From the NCBI RefSeq assembly GCF_018139625.1, contig NZ_JAGSOH010000004.1:62001-126000 (forward strand): a DNA stretch of 64,000 bases, written 5' to 3'. The notes beneath the pieces were generated by a model. That model was not told where the DNA came from, ran no database searches, and worked only from the letters and a program-made list of their open reading frames with translations. Positions 50,081 to 60,773 of the stretch are shown here, piece by piece. A program made the position numbers and the translations under genes. This DNA is from Actinospica acidithermotolerans. GTDB taxonomy: Bacteria > Actinomycetota > Actinomycetes > Streptomycetales > Catenulisporaceae. Within the stretch, counting starts at the first letter, position 1; each line of letters starts with the position of its first letter.

Positions 50081-51049
50081 GTGACTGCGGTCGAATCCCT
50101 TCCGGCGACTCCGGTCGTGGCCGCTCCGGCGCGGGAGCAGGTCCCGGCGCGGCGCGCGTCGGCGGCCGACACCGTGCGCGCGTACGTCGCGCTCACCAAG
50201 CCGCGGATCATCGAGCTGCTGATCATCACGACGATCCCGGTGATGTTCCTGGCGAAGGGCGGCGTGCCGAACCTGTGGACGGTCGTCGCCGTCACCGTGG
50301 GCGGCTACCTCTCCGCGGGCAGCGCGAACGCGCTCAACTGCTGGGTCGACCGGGACATCGACACCGAGATGCGGCGCACCCGGCGCCGGCCGCTCGCCAT
50401 GCACACCGTCACGCCGAACGCCGCGGTGGTCTTCGGCCTGGTGCTCGGCGTGCTCTCCACGCTGTGGCTCGGCTTCGCCGTCAACTGGCTCTCCTCGATG
50501 CTGGCGCTCGCCGCGAACGTGTTCTACGTGGTCGTCTACTCGATGATCCTCAAGCGGCGCACCTCGCAGAACATCGTCTGGGGCGGCGCCGCCGGCTGCT
50601 TCCCGACCGTGATCGGCTGGACCGCCGTCACCGACCACCTGGCCTGGCCGCCCGCCGTGCTGTTCCTGGTCGTGTTCATGTGGACGCCGCCGCACTTCTG
50701 GTCGCTCGCCATGCGCTACCGCGAGGACTACGCCGCGGCCAACGTCCCGATGCTCCCGTGCGTCGCCCCCGAGCGGCACGTGGCCTGGCAGATGGTGCTC
50801 TACACCTGGGCCACGGTCGCCTGCTCGCTGGCCGTCTGGCCGATCGCGCACACCGGCTGGGTCTACGGAATCGGCGCGGCGGTGCTCGGCGCCGGGTTCC
50901 TGGTCGTGGCGCACCAGCTGCACTGGCAGGCCCGGAAGGGCGTGAGCGGCGTGGCCCTGAAGCCGATGCGGATGTTCCACTTCTCCAACAGCTACCTGGC
51001 GCTGCTGTTCGTCCTTCTCGCGGTGGATCCGCTGGTGCGACGATTCTGA
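50081..51049 (+). CDS. ctaB: Protoheme IX farnesyltransferase (heme O synthase)
   Basis: 322 aa, UbiA-superfamily membrane prenyltransferase. The catalytic NxxxDxxxD motif is NCWVDRDIDTEMRRTRRRPL, with ALTKPRIIELLIITTIPVM before it and VYSMILKRRT and YREDYAAANVPM later. It adds farnesyl to heme b for cytochrome oxidase; ctaA, the next step, lies 9 kb away on the other strand. GTG 50081 has an AGGGG site; ATG 50063 is possible. Confidence 0.95.
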   Translation: MTAVESLPATPVVAAPAREQVPARRASAADTVRAYVALTKPRIIELLIITTIPVMFLAKGGVPNLWTVVAVTVGGYLSAGSANALNCWVDRDIDTEMRRTRRRPLAMHTVTPNAAVVFGLVLGVLSTLWLGFAVNWLSSMLALAANVFYVVVYSMILKRRTSQNIVWGGAAGCFPTVIGWTAVTDHLAWPPAVLFLVVFMWTPPHFWSLAMRYREDYAAANVPMLPCVAPERHVAWQMVLYTWATVACSLAVWPIAHTGWVYGIGAAVLGAGFLVVAHQLHWQARKGVSGVALKPMRMFHFSNSYLALLFVLLAVDPLVRRF

Positions 51050-53920: not shown

Positions 53921-56830
53921 TCAGCCGCTGAGATCCTCCGCGAGCTTCGTCAGGATCTCGACCGCCTGCCGGTGGCCCACCTCCCGGGCGCGGCTGATCA
54001 CCGGTGCGAGCCTGGCCACGGCCTGCTTGCGCCGGCCGAGACGCCCCTCCAGCGTCGCCGCGATCCGCGCGGACTCGGCGTACTTCCCGAAGGTCTGATC
54101 GCCGCCGACGCGCCACGCGGCGATCGCCGCCTCGGCGGCGGCGAGGGCCTCCTCGTGGCGGCCCGCGGCGCGCAGCACCCGGCCCCGCAACTCGGCGTTG
54201 TAGCCGGTCTCCGGCCATCGCCGGTAGCGGTGGCCAGGTTCGTCGACCTCCTCGGCGGCCTCGTTGACCTCGTCGGCACGGTCCAGGTACGCGAGAGCCT
54301 GCGCGAACCCCTCGGCACCGCGGTTGAGCGCGGCCGTGGCGCCCTCGCGCAGCGCGACTTCGAGGGCCGCCGGGTTGGGCCCCTCGGCGTTCGCGGCGAC
54401 GGCGCGGTCCACGGCCTTCGACGCCTCGTCCGGCATCCCGGCCTGGAACAGCGCCCCGGCCAGCTCGCACACGACCAGCGTGCGCGCGGGGCTCGGGCTC
54501 GAGTCCGCCATGTACTCGGCGAGCCGGGCGAGCACCTCGGCCGCCGCCTGGGGCTCGCCCTCCTCCTTCAGCGCCATGCCGAGGTCGAGCCGGAGCTGCC
54601 AGCGCTCCTCCCGCTCCATGCGCTCCTCGGCCGGTTCGTCGAGCACGGACTCGAGCACGGCCACCGCGTCCACCCGCCGGTCCGCGGCCAGCAGCGCCTG
54701 GCCGAGCTCCGCGCGGGTACGCACCGCGCCGAGCTCGTCGCCGGCCCGGTCGTACCGGGCGGCCGCCGTGGTCAGATGGGCGATCCCGGCGGCTCTGTCC
54801 CCTGCCCGCATGCGGTTGTGTGCCAGGCTCTGCAGGATGACGGCCTCGGCCGCCGCCTCGGGGGGCCACTCGGCGAGCGCGCGGTGCAGTGCCGCGAGGC
54901 CTTCGTCGAGCCGACCGAGGGCGGTCAGCAGCCGGCCCTGCTGCAGCAGCACGGGAGCCAGGGCCCAGGGCCGATTCGCCGCTTCGAGCAGCGGGATCGC
55001 GATCTCGAGCTGTCCGAGCGCCGGTTCGAGCCGCCCGGTGCCGGCCATCGCCTCGGCCGCCGTCACCGCCGCGGTGGCGACGCTGACCGGTACGCCGAGC
55101 CGGATCGCGTCCGCGCGGTAGGCCTCCACCTCCCGCTCGAACACGGCCAGGGCCGCCGAGCCGCCGGCGGACCGGTCCTCCCGGCCCAGGACGGCGGCGT
55201 GCAGGTCGTCCAGGGCCGCGGCGGCCCGGTTCCGGCGGACCGTCAGGTACTCGGTCGCGGAGATGGATTCCGAGGCCTGGTACTCCTCGGCCGTGGCGAG
55301 CAGGCCGTCCAGCTCCGTCCACAGCGCCTCCCCGCCGTCCTGCGCGGCGCGGGACGCGAGCCATGCGGCGCGGGCCCGCCGTGCCACGGCCCGGCCCGGT
55401 TCGCCGGCCTCCTCGTAGAGGTCCGCCGCCGCGCGCACCTGCGCCGCCGCCTCGGCCCAGGCGCTCTCGCGGATGAGCGGTGCGGCGGCGTGCTCGGCGA
55501 GTTCCGCCCGGAGCACGCCGTCGAGATCCGCCTCCTTCTGCGCACGCTCGGCGACGGCGTCCCACAGGTCGCCGGACGTCGGCTTACCGGTCTTGGCTGC
55601 CTCCCGCGCCTCGGCCAGCAGCTCTCCGAAGTCCTCCGGTACTTCGTGCCCGGCCGGCGCCGTGGCCGGGGAGGCCGTCGTGGCCGCGGCGGCCGGCGCG
55701 GCCGTCAGCGGCGTGACCCGCACGCCGAGCGGCAGGGGCTCGCTCGTCAACGCCGTCCCCGCGCACCGGGCGCGGTGCGTGTCGCCGACGTGCGTGGTCC
55801 CGTTGCGTTCGTCGAAGCGGCGCGCCAGCTCGTCCGACTCCGCGATCAGCTCGGCGAGCAGCGAACCCGCGGTGTGCGTCCCGCCGCCGGGGCCGGGCAC
55901 CGGCACGTCGGCGTGGCCGTCCGCCGCCAGCTCCGCCAGCAGGACGCGGATTCCCTGGAGGAACGAGAGCCGGTCTGCCGGGCTCATCGGCGCGTCGAAC
56001 CGGCCGCGGTTCTCCGCGAGCAGTTCCAGGCCGCGCGCCGCGTTGCCGGTGCGCGCGAGGAACTCCAGATGCCGGCCGACCTCGCTGTTCATCGAGACCT
56101 TGCCGCGCGTCTGCCGGTAGCCCGTCCGGTGCGCCGCGGCGGCCTCCTCCAGCCGACCCGTCCGGACCAGCGAGAACAGCGCGTGGGAGACCGTGGCGGC
56201 GGGCTCCTCCGCGCAGCCGAGCTTGCCGTCCAGCACCGGCTGCCAGGCGCGCAGGGCCCGCTCGTCGTCGCCGCGCTGCGCCCAGTAGATCCCCCGGTTG
56301 CGCGCTTCGCAGGCTTCGCAGTCGCTGAACTCGTCGCGCGGCCTGGACGCCCACAGCTCGTACGCGAAGTCGAGGTCGACGCCGGTGTGGGTCGCCAGAT
56401 GCATGCGCGAGGTGTACACCGCGCTCAGCGGCTTGTCCGCCGCCGAGTAGTACGTCCTCATGTGCGCGATCCAGCCCTCGATCGTGGCCAGCGGCATCTC
56501 CGGGAGGGCCAGCAGCGACGTGGTGATCCACTTGAAGCACCAGAACATCCGGTGCGTGGCCCACTCGTCGAACGCCTCGGGCTTCTCCTCGCGCAGCTTC
56601 AGGATCCTGCTGAACAGGACCGGCGCCTTCGGGATCTCGCCGCCGTACTCGTAGGCGCCCAGCAGTTCGAGCATCGCGTAGGCGTACGCCTCGTCGTGGC
56701 CGAGCCGTTCCGCGGCGTCGACGAGCTCTTCCGTCCGCGCGGTCCTCGCCGTGCCGTACGGCTCTTCGCGCATCTGTTGCAGCGCGTCGAATATCTGCTG
56801 CTCCGGCATCGCGTTCTGTTCGCCGCTCAC
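53921..56830 (-). CDS. Large tetratricopeptide-repeat protein linked to HSP90 homologue
   Basis: 969 aa. It is helical throughout. The C-terminal half (about residues 430-960) is a run of TPR-like pairs, with Ala-rich repeats such as LGQALLAADRRVDAVAVLES and LRAAGRHEEALAAAEAAIAAW. The N-terminal half resembles TPR helices with aromatic insertions (THRMFWCFKWITTSLLALP). A Pro/Ala linker near residue 370 separates them. The GTG start at 56830 overlaps the HSP90 stop (GTGA) with a GGAGGACG site. The upstream part of the same open frame, to 59104, is a shadow of the HSP90 gene. A co-chaperone or client-adaptor role is inferred from coupling and TPRs. Confidence 0.8.
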   Translation of the reverse strand: MSGEQNAMPEQQIFDALQQMREEPYGTARTARTEELVDAAERLGHDEAYAYAMLELLGAYEYGGEIPKAPVLFSRILKLREEKPEAFDEWATHRMFWCFKWITTSLLALPEMPLATIEGWIAHMRTYYSAADKPLSAVYTSRMHLATHTGVDLDFAYELWASRPRDEFSDCEACEARNRGIYWAQRGDDERALRAWQPVLDGKLGCAEEPAATVSHALFSLVRTGRLEEAAAAHRTGYRQTRGKVSMNSEVGRHLEFLARTGNAARGLELLAENRGRFDAPMSPADRLSFLQGIRVLLAELAADGHADVPVPGPGGGTHTAGSLLAELIAESDELARRFDERNGTTHVGDTHRARCAGTALTSEPLPLGVRVTPLTAAPAAAATTASPATAPAGHEVPEDFGELLAEAREAAKTGKPTSGDLWDAVAERAQKEADLDGVLRAELAEHAAAPLIRESAWAEAAAQVRAAADLYEEAGEPGRAVARRARAAWLASRAAQDGGEALWTELDGLLATAEEYQASESISATEYLTVRRNRAAAALDDLHAAVLGREDRSAGGSAALAVFEREVEAYRADAIRLGVPVSVATAAVTAAEAMAGTGRLEPALGQLEIAIPLLEAANRPWALAPVLLQQGRLLTALGRLDEGLAALHRALAEWPPEAAAEAVILQSLAHNRMRAGDRAAGIAHLTTAAARYDRAGDELGAVRTRAELGQALLAADRRVDAVAVLESVLDEPAEERMEREERWQLRLDLGMALKEEGEPQAAAEVLARLAEYMADSSPSPARTLVVCELAGALFQAGMPDEASKAVDRAVAANAEGPNPAALEVALREGATAALNRGAEGFAQALAYLDRADEVNEAAEEVDEPGHRYRRWPETGYNAELRGRVLRAAGRHEEALAAAEAAIAAWRVGGDQTFGKYAESARIAATLEGRLGRRKQAVARLAPVISRAREVGHRQAVEILTKLAEDLSG

Positions 56831-58659
56831 CGCTCGTCCTCCGTGCCCTGTCCCGAATCGTGGGTCGCGTGCTCCAGCAGCCCGAGGAACGCGCGGTTGA
56901 GCTGCGCGTGCTCCGAGGGACGCAGCGGGCGCCGGCTCAGCAGCAGCGCCTGGCCGTACAGCCCTTCGACGGCCGTCTCGGCCAGATGCGTGTCGGCGAT
57001 CGCGGCGACGCGGCGCACCAGCGGGCACTGGTGGTTCAGCACGAGCTGGGCCCGCGGTGCGGCCGAGCGCAGGGCGCCGAGGATGTCGGCCCAGAGCCCG
57101 TCCGAAGCGGCCTCCTGCTCCGCGCGGCGCCGCTCGTGCCTGGCTTCGCGGTTGTCGATCAGCAGCGCCGGCACCGTCACCGGGTGGAAGCTGCGCAGCG
57201 CCACGTCGCAGCCGTAGCCGTCCACGACCTTCCTGGCCAGCGCGAGGAACCGGGCCGCGGCCAGTTCGACGGCCGGATCCACGCTGTCCAGGTGCGCGGT
57301 GACCGTGTCCGGGTCGAGGTCCAGCACCGAGGTGCCCGGGCGCAGGTCGGGCAGCCGGCGCACCAGGTCGCGATCGTAGGCGTAGCCGCCGTTGACCACG
57401 CCGAGCCCGGCCGCCGCGGCGATCGAGGAGACCTGCCGGAACTCCTCCACGGTCTGGGTGACCAGGATCGTCGGGTGGCTGCGGCTGAACTCGTCGAGCG
57501 TGACGGAGCCGTCCGTGGTCTCGAACGGCAGCCACGGCAGCAGGGCGCGCAGCAGTTCGTCGTCGTAGCGGGCCAGGGCCTTGACCGCGAGGTGGTGCGC
57601 GGACAGGAAGCGGCCGAGCAGGGCCGGATCGCTCGCGGCGAGCCCGGCCAGCCAGTCCCGCAGGCGGGTGCCGAGCGCCTCCCGGACCGCGGCCAGGGAT
57701 TCGTCCTCGTACAGTGCCTCGCGCGAGGCCGTCGGGCGCAGCCCGTCCGAGTCCACGACGCAGCGCACGAAGAAGGCCCAGTCCGGCAGCAGTTCGGCCG
57801 CCTGGTCGGAGACCAGCATGCCCTTGAGGTGCACGCGGTGGCCCGCCTTGCGGCTCGGCGGAGCCGAGGTCGGCAGCACGTAGGCGACGCCGCGCAGTCC
57901 GACGAGCGGGATGTCGAGGTCGATCACGTCCAGCGGCTCGAACTCGAACAGTTCGCGGCAGTGCGCGTCGAGCGCCTCGCGCCGGGCGCGCGGCGAGGCC
58001 TGCGGCCGGTCCCAGACCGCCGGGGTGTCGCTGATCGGGACCGGGATTCCGTCCGAGCCGGTGAGCGTGACGGGGTAGCGCAGCAGCCTGCCGTAATGCC
58101 GGGCGAGCTCGGCCAGCCGGGCCGCACCGAACCACTCCTCGGCGCCCGGCCGCGGCACGAGGGTGACCGTCGTGCCCGGCTCGATCCCGGCCCCGGCCGG
58201 CAGCGTCCGGATGGCGTAGCGGCCGTCCGCGTACCCGTGCCACTGCACCGCGGGCGCCTCCGGATCGCGCGCCGAGCGGGTGACCACTGTGATCTCGTCG
58301 GCGACGACGAAGCAGGCCAGCAGGCCGATGCCGAACTGCCCGACGAATTCCGAGCGCGCCTCGATCAGCCCGTCGGCGTCCCGCTTGGAGCTGCGGCCGA
58401 TGGTGGCGAGGAACCGGTGCACCTCGTCCTCGGTCAACCCGACACCCGAGTCCGTGACGGTGAGCCGGTCGCCGACCCGGATCTCCACGGCGGCGGGCGC
58501 CGCCGGGTCCAGCAGCCGCCGCGCCGTGATCGCGTCCACCGCGTTCTGCATCAGCTCCCGGATGTAGACGCGGGGACTGGAGTAGAGGTGGTGCGAGAGC
58601 AGGTCGACCATGCCGCGCAGGTCGACCTGGAAGGTATGCGCGGGTTCGGGTTCGGGCAC
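56827..58659 (-). CDS. HSP90-family (HtpG-like) chaperone ATPase
   Basis: 610 aa. The GHKL ATP site is complete: ELMQNAVDA (E35, N39), DSGVGLT (D70) and GQFGIGLL (107-114). A middle domain with HRVHLKGMLVSD and LRPTASREALYED follows. The C-terminal third is divergent from HtpG, ends GQGTEDER, and lacks the MEEVD tail that eukaryotic TPR partners bind. GTG 58659 has an AGAAGGTC site. It is coupled to the TPR gene and lies 36 bases after a helical-protein gene. Confidence 0.9.
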   Translation of the reverse strand: MPEPEPAHTFQVDLRGMVDLLSHHLYSSPRVYIRELMQNAVDAITARRLLDPAAPAAVEIRVGDRLTVTDSGVGLTEDEVHRFLATIGRSSKRDADGLIEARSEFVGQFGIGLLACFVVADEITVVTRSARDPEAPAVQWHGYADGRYAIRTLPAGAGIEPGTTVTLVPRPGAEEWFGAARLAELARHYGRLLRYPVTLTGSDGIPVPISDTPAVWDRPQASPRARREALDAHCRELFEFEPLDVIDLDIPLVGLRGVAYVLPTSAPPSRKAGHRVHLKGMLVSDQAAELLPDWAFFVRCVVDSDGLRPTASREALYEDESLAAVREALGTRLRDWLAGLAASDPALLGRFLSAHHLAVKALARYDDELLRALLPWLPFETTDGSVTLDEFSRSHPTILVTQTVEEFRQVSSIAAAAGLGVVNGGYAYDRDLVRRLPDLRPGTSVLDLDPDTVTAHLDSVDPAVELAAARFLALARKVVDGYGCDVALRSFHPVTVPALLIDNREARHERRRAEQEAASDGLWADILGALRSAAPRAQLVLNHQCPLVRRVAAIADTHLAETAVEGLYGQALLLSRRPLRPSEHAQLNRAFLGLLEHATHDSGQGTEDER

Positions 58660-58695
58660 GACGAGACCTTCTTCGGGCGGTGGGACGGCTGCCGG

Positions 58696-59733
58696 TCAGG
58701 CGCCGGCGCGCTTGTACGCGGTGTTGCGGAACCGGGTGTAGAGGTCGATCGGATCCCCGGAGTAGTAGTTCCACCCGGTGGCCACGCCCTCGGTGATCTC
58801 GAACGCCGCCTTGGCCTGCGGCCACATCTCGGCGTAGTAGAAGGCCAGCGCGAACATGTTCGGCCCGAAATAGGGATTGCGCGGACACGAGTAGTCGGCT
58901 CGGAAGACGCTCCGCTCGGCGGCCTCGAGCAGTTCGGCACGCGATTCGGCCGACTTGACGAAGTCGCGCTCCCCGGTGTCCTTGGGCAGGTCGAGGTAGT
59001 GCTCGACGTACGAGACGGCCACGAGCTCGCCGAGGACGTCGCCGTACGGACCGCGCATTGCCTCGGTCGCGAACTCGTGCATCGACTCGTGCGAGCCGAA
59101 CCATTTCTTGTGCAGGTAGGTGTGCATCCGGCGGTACGCGCCGGCGTGTCCGGGCACGCGGTTGATCGTGGACTCGAAGCGCTGCTGCTGGGCCTCGCGT
59201 CCGACCTGCAGCCCGATGCCCGACTGGAGCAGGCCGAACCAGCCGATCGAACTGTCCGGGTCGAGTTCGATCGACGCGTAAAGGTGCTCCTCGGCGGCGC
59301 GCAGGATCTCGTGGAAGCGCCGGAACTGGTCCTGGGAAACGTGCTGGGCGCGCTTGGCGGTCCGCACCGCCCAGCCGGCGTTGATCAGGTGCATGCCGAG
59401 CGCGGCCTGTGCGATCGGATCGTCACCGGCATCCTTGAGCGTCTCGGGCAGCCAGTCGCCGAGCAGGCCGGCATCCGCGCACACACCGGAGATGAGCGCC
59501 CCCTGGTCGTAGCCGGCGAAACCGGCGAAGCCGGCCCGCAGCGCGGTCCAGTCGCGCGCCTCGGCCAGCTTGAGCAGCGCGACGAGATCGGCGTCCCCGC
59601 CGCCGCGCAGGGTGCGCGCCTCGGGCAGGCCGGGGAGCGCCTTCGCGGCCGATGGAGCAGGGGGCGCCGAGACCGTCGGCCGGCCCGCCGCGGCCGAAGC
59701 GCTCTTCTTCTTGCCCAGCCCGAATATGGGCAT
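58696..59733 (-). CDS. Hypothetical helical protein, first gene of HSP90 operon
   Basis: 345 aa, not assigned to a named family. A short basic N-terminus (MPIFGLGKKKS) and Ala/Pro linker precede a helical domain rich in aromatics. It carries a possible TPR-like section (EEHLYASIELDPDSSIGWFG) and conserved-looking His/Trp motifs (YLHKKWFGSHESMHEFATEA). ATG 59733 has a GGAGGGG site; the frame stays open to 59805 without a better start. It heads the group with HSP90 and the TPR protein. DUF4034 is a possible relation that I cannot verify. Confidence 0.7.
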   Translation of the reverse strand: MPIFGLGKKKSASAAAGRPTVSAPPAPSAAKALPGLPEARTLRGGGDADLVALLKLAEARDWTALRAGFAGFAGYDQGALISGVCADAGLLGDWLPETLKDAGDDPIAQAALGMHLINAGWAVRTAKRAQHVSQDQFRRFHEILRAAEEHLYASIELDPDSSIGWFGLLQSGIGLQVGREAQQQRFESTINRVPGHAGAYRRMHTYLHKKWFGSHESMHEFATEAMRGPYGDVLGELVAVSYVEHYLDLPKDTGERDFVKSAESRAELLEAAERSVFRADYSCPRNPYFGPNMFALAFYYAEMWPQAKAAFEITEGVATGWNYYSGDPIDLYTRFRNTAYKRAGA

Positions 59734-59825: not shown

Positions 59826-60773
59826 TCAGTTCCGCACGCGCAGCGACATCAGCACGCGCCAGGCCGCGATCCAGGTCAGGCAGGCGCCGGTCATGTGCAG
59901 CAGGACCATCCAGGCGGGCAGCCCGGCGAAGTACTGCGTGTAGCCGATGACGCCCTGGATGATCAGGACCGCGAACATGTCCCGCACGGCGCGCACGCTC
60001 TCCGGCCGGGCGTCGGCCGCCTTCAGGGCGAACCAGAGCGCCACCGTCAGGCCGACGACGATGAAGACCAGGTCGGCGTGCGCCTGGGTGATGTCGAGGG
60101 CCTTGAACGGCAGGCGCTTGCTGGCGTCACTAGCGCCAGCGTGCGGGTCGGTGCCGGTGACGAGGGTGCCGATGGCGACGACGGCGCCGGTCGCGGTGAC
60201 GAGTACGCGGCCGAGCCAGAGGATCTCGCGGCGGGTGAGCAGTTCGAGGGGGCCGTCGCCCTCGCGGGAGCGGATCCACAGCACGTACGAGACGGCGATC
60301 ATGCCCATCGAGATGCACATGTGCGCGGCGACCCATTCCGGAGCCAGCTTCGTCAGCACGGTGATGCCGCCGACGACCGCCTGGAGCACCACGCCGAGGA
60401 ACAGCATCCAGGACAGTTTCACCAGGACCGGCCGGCGCGGCCTCTGGAACATCGCGGCCAGGATCGCCGCGCCGACGGCCGCCGAGACCGCGTAGGTCAG
60501 CATGCGGTTCGAGAACTCGATGACGCCGTGGTAGCCGAGCGTCGAGACCGGCACGACCGAGCCGCCGGTGCACTCCGGCCACGTCGGGCAGCCCAGGCCC
60601 GAGTTCGTCAGCCGCACCGCGCCGCCGGTGATCACGATCAGCGTGTTGGCCAGCAGCGCGGCGAAGCACGCCCACTCGACCTGCTTCGGCGTCGGGCTCC
60701 AGCGAATGAAGCGGCGCCCGACCTGCTCCCCGGACTCGCGCGCTGCCGGGATTCTCGTCTCCTGCTGGGTCAC
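59826..60773 (-). CDS. ctaA: Heme A synthase (COX15/CtaA family)
   Basis: 315 aa membrane protein, about eight helices. Motifs: GGAVRLTNSGLGCPTWPECTG with its Cys pair (CPTWPEC), YHGVIEFSNRMLTY, EWVAAHMCISMGM and ALDITQAHADLVF, which contain the heme-ligand histidines. It oxidises the heme O methyl group to give heme A for cytochrome oxidase. GTG 60773. It follows the ABC-2 permease gene by 7 bases on the same strand, so it may be co-transcribed. Confidence 0.94.
   Translation of the reverse strand: MTQQETRIPAARESGEQVGRRFIRWSPTPKQVEWACFAALLANTLIVITGGAVRLTNSGLGCPTWPECTGGSVVPVSTLGYHGVIEFSNRMLTYAVSAAVGAAILAAMFQRPRRPVLVKLSWMLFLGVVLQAVVGGITVLTKLAPEWVAAHMCISMGMIAVSYVLWIRSREGDGPLELLTRREILWLGRVLVTATGAVVAIGTLVTGTDPHAGASDASKRLPFKALDITQAHADLVFIVVGLTVALWFALKAADARPESVRAVRDMFAVLIIQGVIGYTQYFAGLPAWMVLLHMTGACLTWIAAWRVLMSLRVRN

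Follow-up and report, generated by a model that had tools for sequence, protein, structure and literature searches.

A TPR protein gene coupled to a distinct clade of bacterial HSP90 encodes a candidate dedicated partner

Eukaryotic Hsp90 operates with TPR co-chaperones, such as Hop, FKBP51/52 and PP5. A study of bacterial HSP90 published in 2013 noted that obligate HSP90 co-chaperones had not been identified in bacteria, and excluded the long-branch paralogues hsp90B and hsp90C from its analysis (PMC3708813). Exact-phrase searches of the open-licence literature returned no obligate bacterial HSP90 co-chaperone reported since then. In the same literature, the HSP90-TPR pair, PRK14083 and lmo0941/0942 yielded unrelated or passing mentions only, although an earlier description may exist elsewhere; lmo0941, for example, is mentioned as a hypothetical protein that carries selection signals in invasive strains of Listeria (PMC6901971). 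The closest annotated family, NF010683 (PRK14083, 'HSP90 family protein'), is annotated by name only, and its partner gene is annotated as 'hypothetical protein'.

We analyzed a stretch of 64,000 nucleotides from Actinospica acidithermotolerans (hereafter, the window), in which genes for a helical protein (HEAD), an HSP90 family protein and a TPR protein follow one another. The first-pass annotation had described them as three minus-strand genes in series at 53921–59733, with HEAD and HSP90 lying 36 nt apart and the HSP90 and TPR genes overlapping as GTGA. ORF inspection confirmed this arrangement, the HSP90 stop and TPR start overlapping by 4 nt, and codon-usage gene calling chose the same three ORFs. 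The features discussed below are as follows:

58696..59733, minus strand: HEAD gene, encoding a helical protein of 345 aa with a distant relationship to DUF4034/TPR-like proteins; candidate for an accessory adaptor
56827..58659, minus strand: gene for the HSP90 family protein, 610 aa, identified by NF010683/PRK14083 score, tree and fold
58324..58557, minus strand: N-terminal ATP-site elements of HSP90 (E35, N39, D70-x-G72-x-G74, G107-G110-G112), invariant in 81 sequences
57721..57723, minus strand: R313 of HSP90, catalytic-arginine position (SRE motif) in the middle domain, invariant in 81 sequences
56827..56830, minus strand: GTGA stop/start overlap of the HSP90 and TPR genes, a signature of translational coupling
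53921..56830, minus strand: TPR protein gene, 969 aa, identified by ORF, profile matches of its relatives and predicted structure
55763..56803, minus strand: conserved N-terminal helical domain (N-domain) of the TPR protein, residues 10–356, shared with Listeria and Paenibacillus; pLDDT mostly above 90
56213..56320, minus strand: Cys motif within the N-domain, C171-x2-C174-E...C206, invariant across 48 Actinomycetota sequences and retained in Bacillota
53927..55630, minus strand: C-terminal TPR superhelix, residues 401–968, matching LGN TPR by VIA-align

The GC content of the three-gene cluster is close to that of its surroundings, and is somewhat higher within the TPR gene. The cluster had been placed between ctaB and ctaA. 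ctaA (59826–60773) is indeed the direct neighbour upstream of HEAD, but between ctaB (50117–51049) and the TPR gene there are a manA-like gene, a 217-aa ORF and a short-chain dehydrogenase gene. Throughout the genus of the window, the trio is kept at this one inherited ctaB-ctaA site, and in one member of the genus HEAD overlaps HSP90 as well, by 4 nt. From its position between ctaB and ctaA, the cluster had been thought to look lineage-specific, which holds for the insertion site; the module itself is distributed far more widely, as described below.

The HSP90 of the window is a full-length member of NF010683, scoring 834.8 bits over residues 6–603 of 610 against a curated cut-off of 455 bits. 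Its score against the canonical HtpG model NF003555 was 192.1 bits, below that model's cut-off of 371 bits. A tree built on the N-terminal and middle domains separated the NF010683 clade from canonical HtpG with a support of 100/100 (19 rows, including Listeria and Paenibacillus), long branches leaving the order inside the clade uncertain. Canonical HtpG shares with this protein the N-M-C architecture of HSP90 and the same ATP-site residues. Judged by these residues, the ATP site is intact at every position checked, as the first-pass annotation had read it, and all tested residues are invariant across 81 family sequences. None of these sequences (0/81) ends in an EEVD-like tail, again in line with that annotation, so that the MEEVD-type tail by which the HSP90 of a carboxylate-clamp co-chaperone is recognized is lacking here.

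The C-terminal third had been described as divergent. Pfam HSP90 (PF00183) indeed matched residues 276–383 only and left the C-terminal third unrecognized, but the NF010683 match spans nearly the whole protein. The predicted model, of modest confidence (pLDDT 75), aligned with TRAP1 over residues 13–604 (Z 21, rmsd 16.6, the latter presumably owing to domain placement), and Foldseek matched it to full-length Hsp90 and HtpG. These results indicate that the C-terminal third, although divergent in sequence, matches the C-terminal region of HSP90. The genome containing the window also encodes a canonical HtpG and a third, 860-aa HSP90-like protein. The gene for the latter (contig C9, L190:8209-10791) scored 339 bits against NF010683, which is below the cut-off, and a 120-aa TPR-like ORF begins 3 nt after it; a relative on a Pseudanabaena plasmid (L162) lies near TIR and TPR genes.

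The first-pass annotation had named rare adjacency in other genomes as grounds for abandoning the proposed module. In 60 relatives, however, this TPR gene lies directly downstream, on the same strand, of every HSP90 gene above the cut-off (61/61). The pair is likewise adjacent in 80/80 named loci from Streptomyces, Kitasatospora, Streptacidiphilus, Actinacidiphila, Catenulispora and Embleya, which are not independent because they are the best-scoring loci and are mutually related; the TPR start falls between –4 and +8 nt from the HSP90 stop in 79 of the 80. Across the 60 genomes, both genes were present in 44, neither in 14, TPR alone in two and HSP90 alone in none (Fisher P 7e-12), whereas canonical HtpG displayed no association with the TPR gene (P 0.36). 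Furthermore, the HSP90 and TPR distances correlated within subclades (r 0.91–0.98), which partly reflects common descent. Among 296 evenly sampled Actinomycetota genomes, ten contained an HSP90 above the cut-off, and the module is thus limited in distribution; the loci retrieved from this sample, including two more distant ones (G287 and G308), again contained the pair. No HSP90-TPR gene fusion was noticed among the loci read.

The pair is also found in a second phylum. On a replicon of Paenibacillus and in records from Listeria, two genera of Bacillota drawn from a plasmid collection, an HSP90 of the NF010683 clade is followed by a gene for a 320–353-aa protein. This gene overlaps the HSP90 gene by 4 nt in Paenibacillus; in Listeria it comes 11 nt after the HSP90 gene, and two partner copies are present there (lmo0942-lmo0941 type). 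The Bacillota partner corresponds to the conserved N-terminal domain only (about 330 aa) of the window TPR protein and retains the Cys motif; a single hhalign comparison of the two gave a probability of 100 and an E-value of 3.4e-38 over 310 columns. The N-domain is therefore the minimal conserved partner, and the C-terminal array appears to have been added on the actinobacterial side. The adjacency in 61/61 genes and 80/80 loci, and across phyla, supports a dedicated HSP90-TPR module.

With respect to the partner itself, Pfam TPR profiles gave 19.7 bits on the window protein, below their cut-offs, and TPR_12 matched 44 of its 48 relatives at E <= 0.01. No sequence match for this protein of about 1000 aa was found in the PDB. 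Its AlphaFold model (pLDDT 93.2, pTM 0.85) is almost all-helical and consists of two parts, residues 10–356 and 401–968, joined by a low-confidence linker. Residues 621–966 aligned with the TPR of LGN (VIA-align; Z 25.1, rmsd 4.5 over 331 residues), so that the C-terminal array has the same fold as TPR superhelix proteins such as LGN and O-GlcNAc transferase; in contrast to those proteins, the partner also carries an N-domain with a CxxC...C motif, which was seen here in this protein group only. The array evolves faster than the N-domain (conservation 0.49 versus 0.64), and most of the invariant residues lie in the latter, including C171, C174 and C206. These cysteines might form a metal site; this stays a guess because the candidate fourth ligand, a His after C206, is absent from the window protein.

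TPR proteins of this group also occur outside the pair. Solo genes were found in G019 and G050, as a second copy in G052, and as paralogues on contig C298 of the genome containing the window, and the TPR protein can thus persist without its HSP90. The G052 copy (L213:6551-9379) occupies the recG core site without an HSP90, and a complete pair is present elsewhere in that genome. On contig C298 (L191:6037-11227; L192, L193), two large TPR proteins are adjacent and conserved in the genus; the first carries the same CxxC...C motif in its N-domain, and HSP90 is absent nearby. A replicon of Actinomyces oris (L197:5229-9979) encodes a TPR protein that has the same N-domain and lies next to a YbjN-domain protein; no HSP90 accompanies it.

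We consider it probable that the products of the HSP90 and TPR genes make up a single ATP-driven chaperone machine, in which the TPR protein is the dedicated partner of a distinct HSP90 clade. The pairing, the coupled starts, the intact ATPase, the combination of a conserved domain with a variable array and the lack of an EEVD tail together agree with a dedicated adaptor or co-chaperone docking via its N-domain. The binding, the docking surface, the handling of clients and the role of HEAD, which we infer, would be as follows. The N-domain of the TPR protein, the almost obligately paired partner of this HSP90, is proposed here as the docking module and would bind HSP90 through a contact that does not involve an EEVD tail. 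The variable C-terminal TPR array, proposed as the client-binding part, would recognize or scaffold clients during the ATP cycle, and translational coupling would hold the two proteins at matched levels. HEAD might be an optional second adaptor gained in one subclade. Such a system would work like eukaryotic Hsp90 in that an HSP90 acts with a partner of TPR fold; it differs in that the HSP90 has no MEEVD tail and that the putative binding partner is a two-part solenoid of roughly 1000 aa.

These results suggest that some bacteria possess a built-in HSP90 helper. Because it lies behind every checked HSP90 of the clade, in the relatives and in two genera of Bacillota, the TPR gene provides a concrete candidate for an HSP90 co-chaperone, which makes the question of bacterial co-chaperones testable in tractable hosts, laboratory strains of Streptomyces among them; if the binding is real, bacterial HSP90 has a TPR partner that is independent of the EEVD tail. 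More tentatively, and with somewhat less than even confidence, we propose that bacteria evolved their own HSP90-TPR system, independent of the MEEVD/carboxylate-clamp arrangement, with a Cys-containing docking domain conserved in Actinomycetota and Bacillota, and that HEAD-type adaptors may be exchanged between this chaperone and an M16-like peptidase.

The main alternative, which we regard as unlikely, casts the TPR protein as the sole dedicated client: a large sensor or scaffold whose folding or assembly depends on an HSP90 of its own. A large repeat protein translated, in a coupled manner, right after its chaperone is compatible with this idea, and the occurrence of TPR without HSP90, but never the reverse, would follow if the function resides in the TPR protein and the HSP90 only assists. 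The solo genes of G019, G050 and G052 fit a client somewhat better, and the presence of the N-domain in proteins without an adjoining HSP90 (the C298 pair and Actinomyces oris) also speaks for it. However, the compact Bacillota partner, of about 320–350 aa, would hardly need a private HSP90, and what is conserved together with HSP90 is the N-domain rather than the whole TPR protein.

The three genes had been proposed as one module, of which the HSP90-TPR pair stands; HEAD is not a core part but the accessory of one subclade. It was found upstream of HSP90 in 30 of the 80 named loci, at a distance of 11–384 nt save for one locus at 1.2 kb, and is missing from the other Streptomyces subclade and from Bacillota. 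The pairs without HEAD occupy one fixed core chromosomal site in Streptomyces, by recG and DhaL-domain/rpmB genes, in 41/50 loci. Around the HEAD-type loci, flanking genes are common to at most 3/30 loci, while the module genes stay together, and some copies are located on megaplasmids.

The megaplasmid copies, and weak N-terminal matches to the PADLOC TmtA and type II restriction enzyme models, could be taken to indicate a defence or conflict system in which an HSP90-like ATPase acts with TPR sensors, and a role in defence had been suggested earlier. We consider this improbable: the matches are partial and limited to the common ATPase fold rather than family-wide, the module contains no nuclease, TIR or other effector gene, and the window locus sits among cta and sugar-phosphate genes. 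Together with the lack of effectors, the fixed core location of the no-HEAD type disfavours defence. A stress role, also suggested earlier, found no support at the DNA level, as operator searches detected neither HAIR nor CIRCE near the module; a sigma-70 scan found nothing, such scans being ill-suited to the host organism. Finally, it is very improbable that the genes are merely co-transcribed neighbours without functional linkage, as the single inherited site in the genus of the window might suggest, because their adjacency persists over different chromosomal sites, plasmids and two phyla.

Two further candidates were considered and rejected. A biochemically characterized HtpG of Streptomyces hygroscopicus with an E88G/N92L pocket (PMC3603443) was not assignable to the NF010683 family: the no-HEAD clade shares the leucine at N92 with canonical actinobacterial HtpG, and none of the sequences compared carried G at E88. 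A viral origin was set aside, as no relative was found in a scan of viral contigs and the sole phage-labelled near-relative is an unverified 6.6-kb fragment. This record (MT837560.1, labelled Bacteriophage sp.; L198:1915-6488) carries an HSP90-TPR pair with a 4-nt overlap, and is probably a mislabelled bacterial fragment because the neighbouring genes look like bacterial sigma-factor-type genes.

HEAD resembles DUF4034-containing proteins by sequence match, aligning with a DUF4034 protein of Deinococcus (E 1e-5). The PF13226 (DUF4034) profile did not match the HEAD of the window and matched only two of 23 relatives, weakly (best E 0.016); a solo HEAD paralogue matched it at E 2.4e-4. In Streptomyces, solo HEAD paralogues (L208:4569-7318, L209:6121-8901 and L210:4738-7520) adjoin a gene for an M16-like peptidase with an HLVEH motif, with a start/stop overlap in L208 and L210 and a spacing of 87 nt in L209, which hints that HEAD serves different enzymes as an adaptor.
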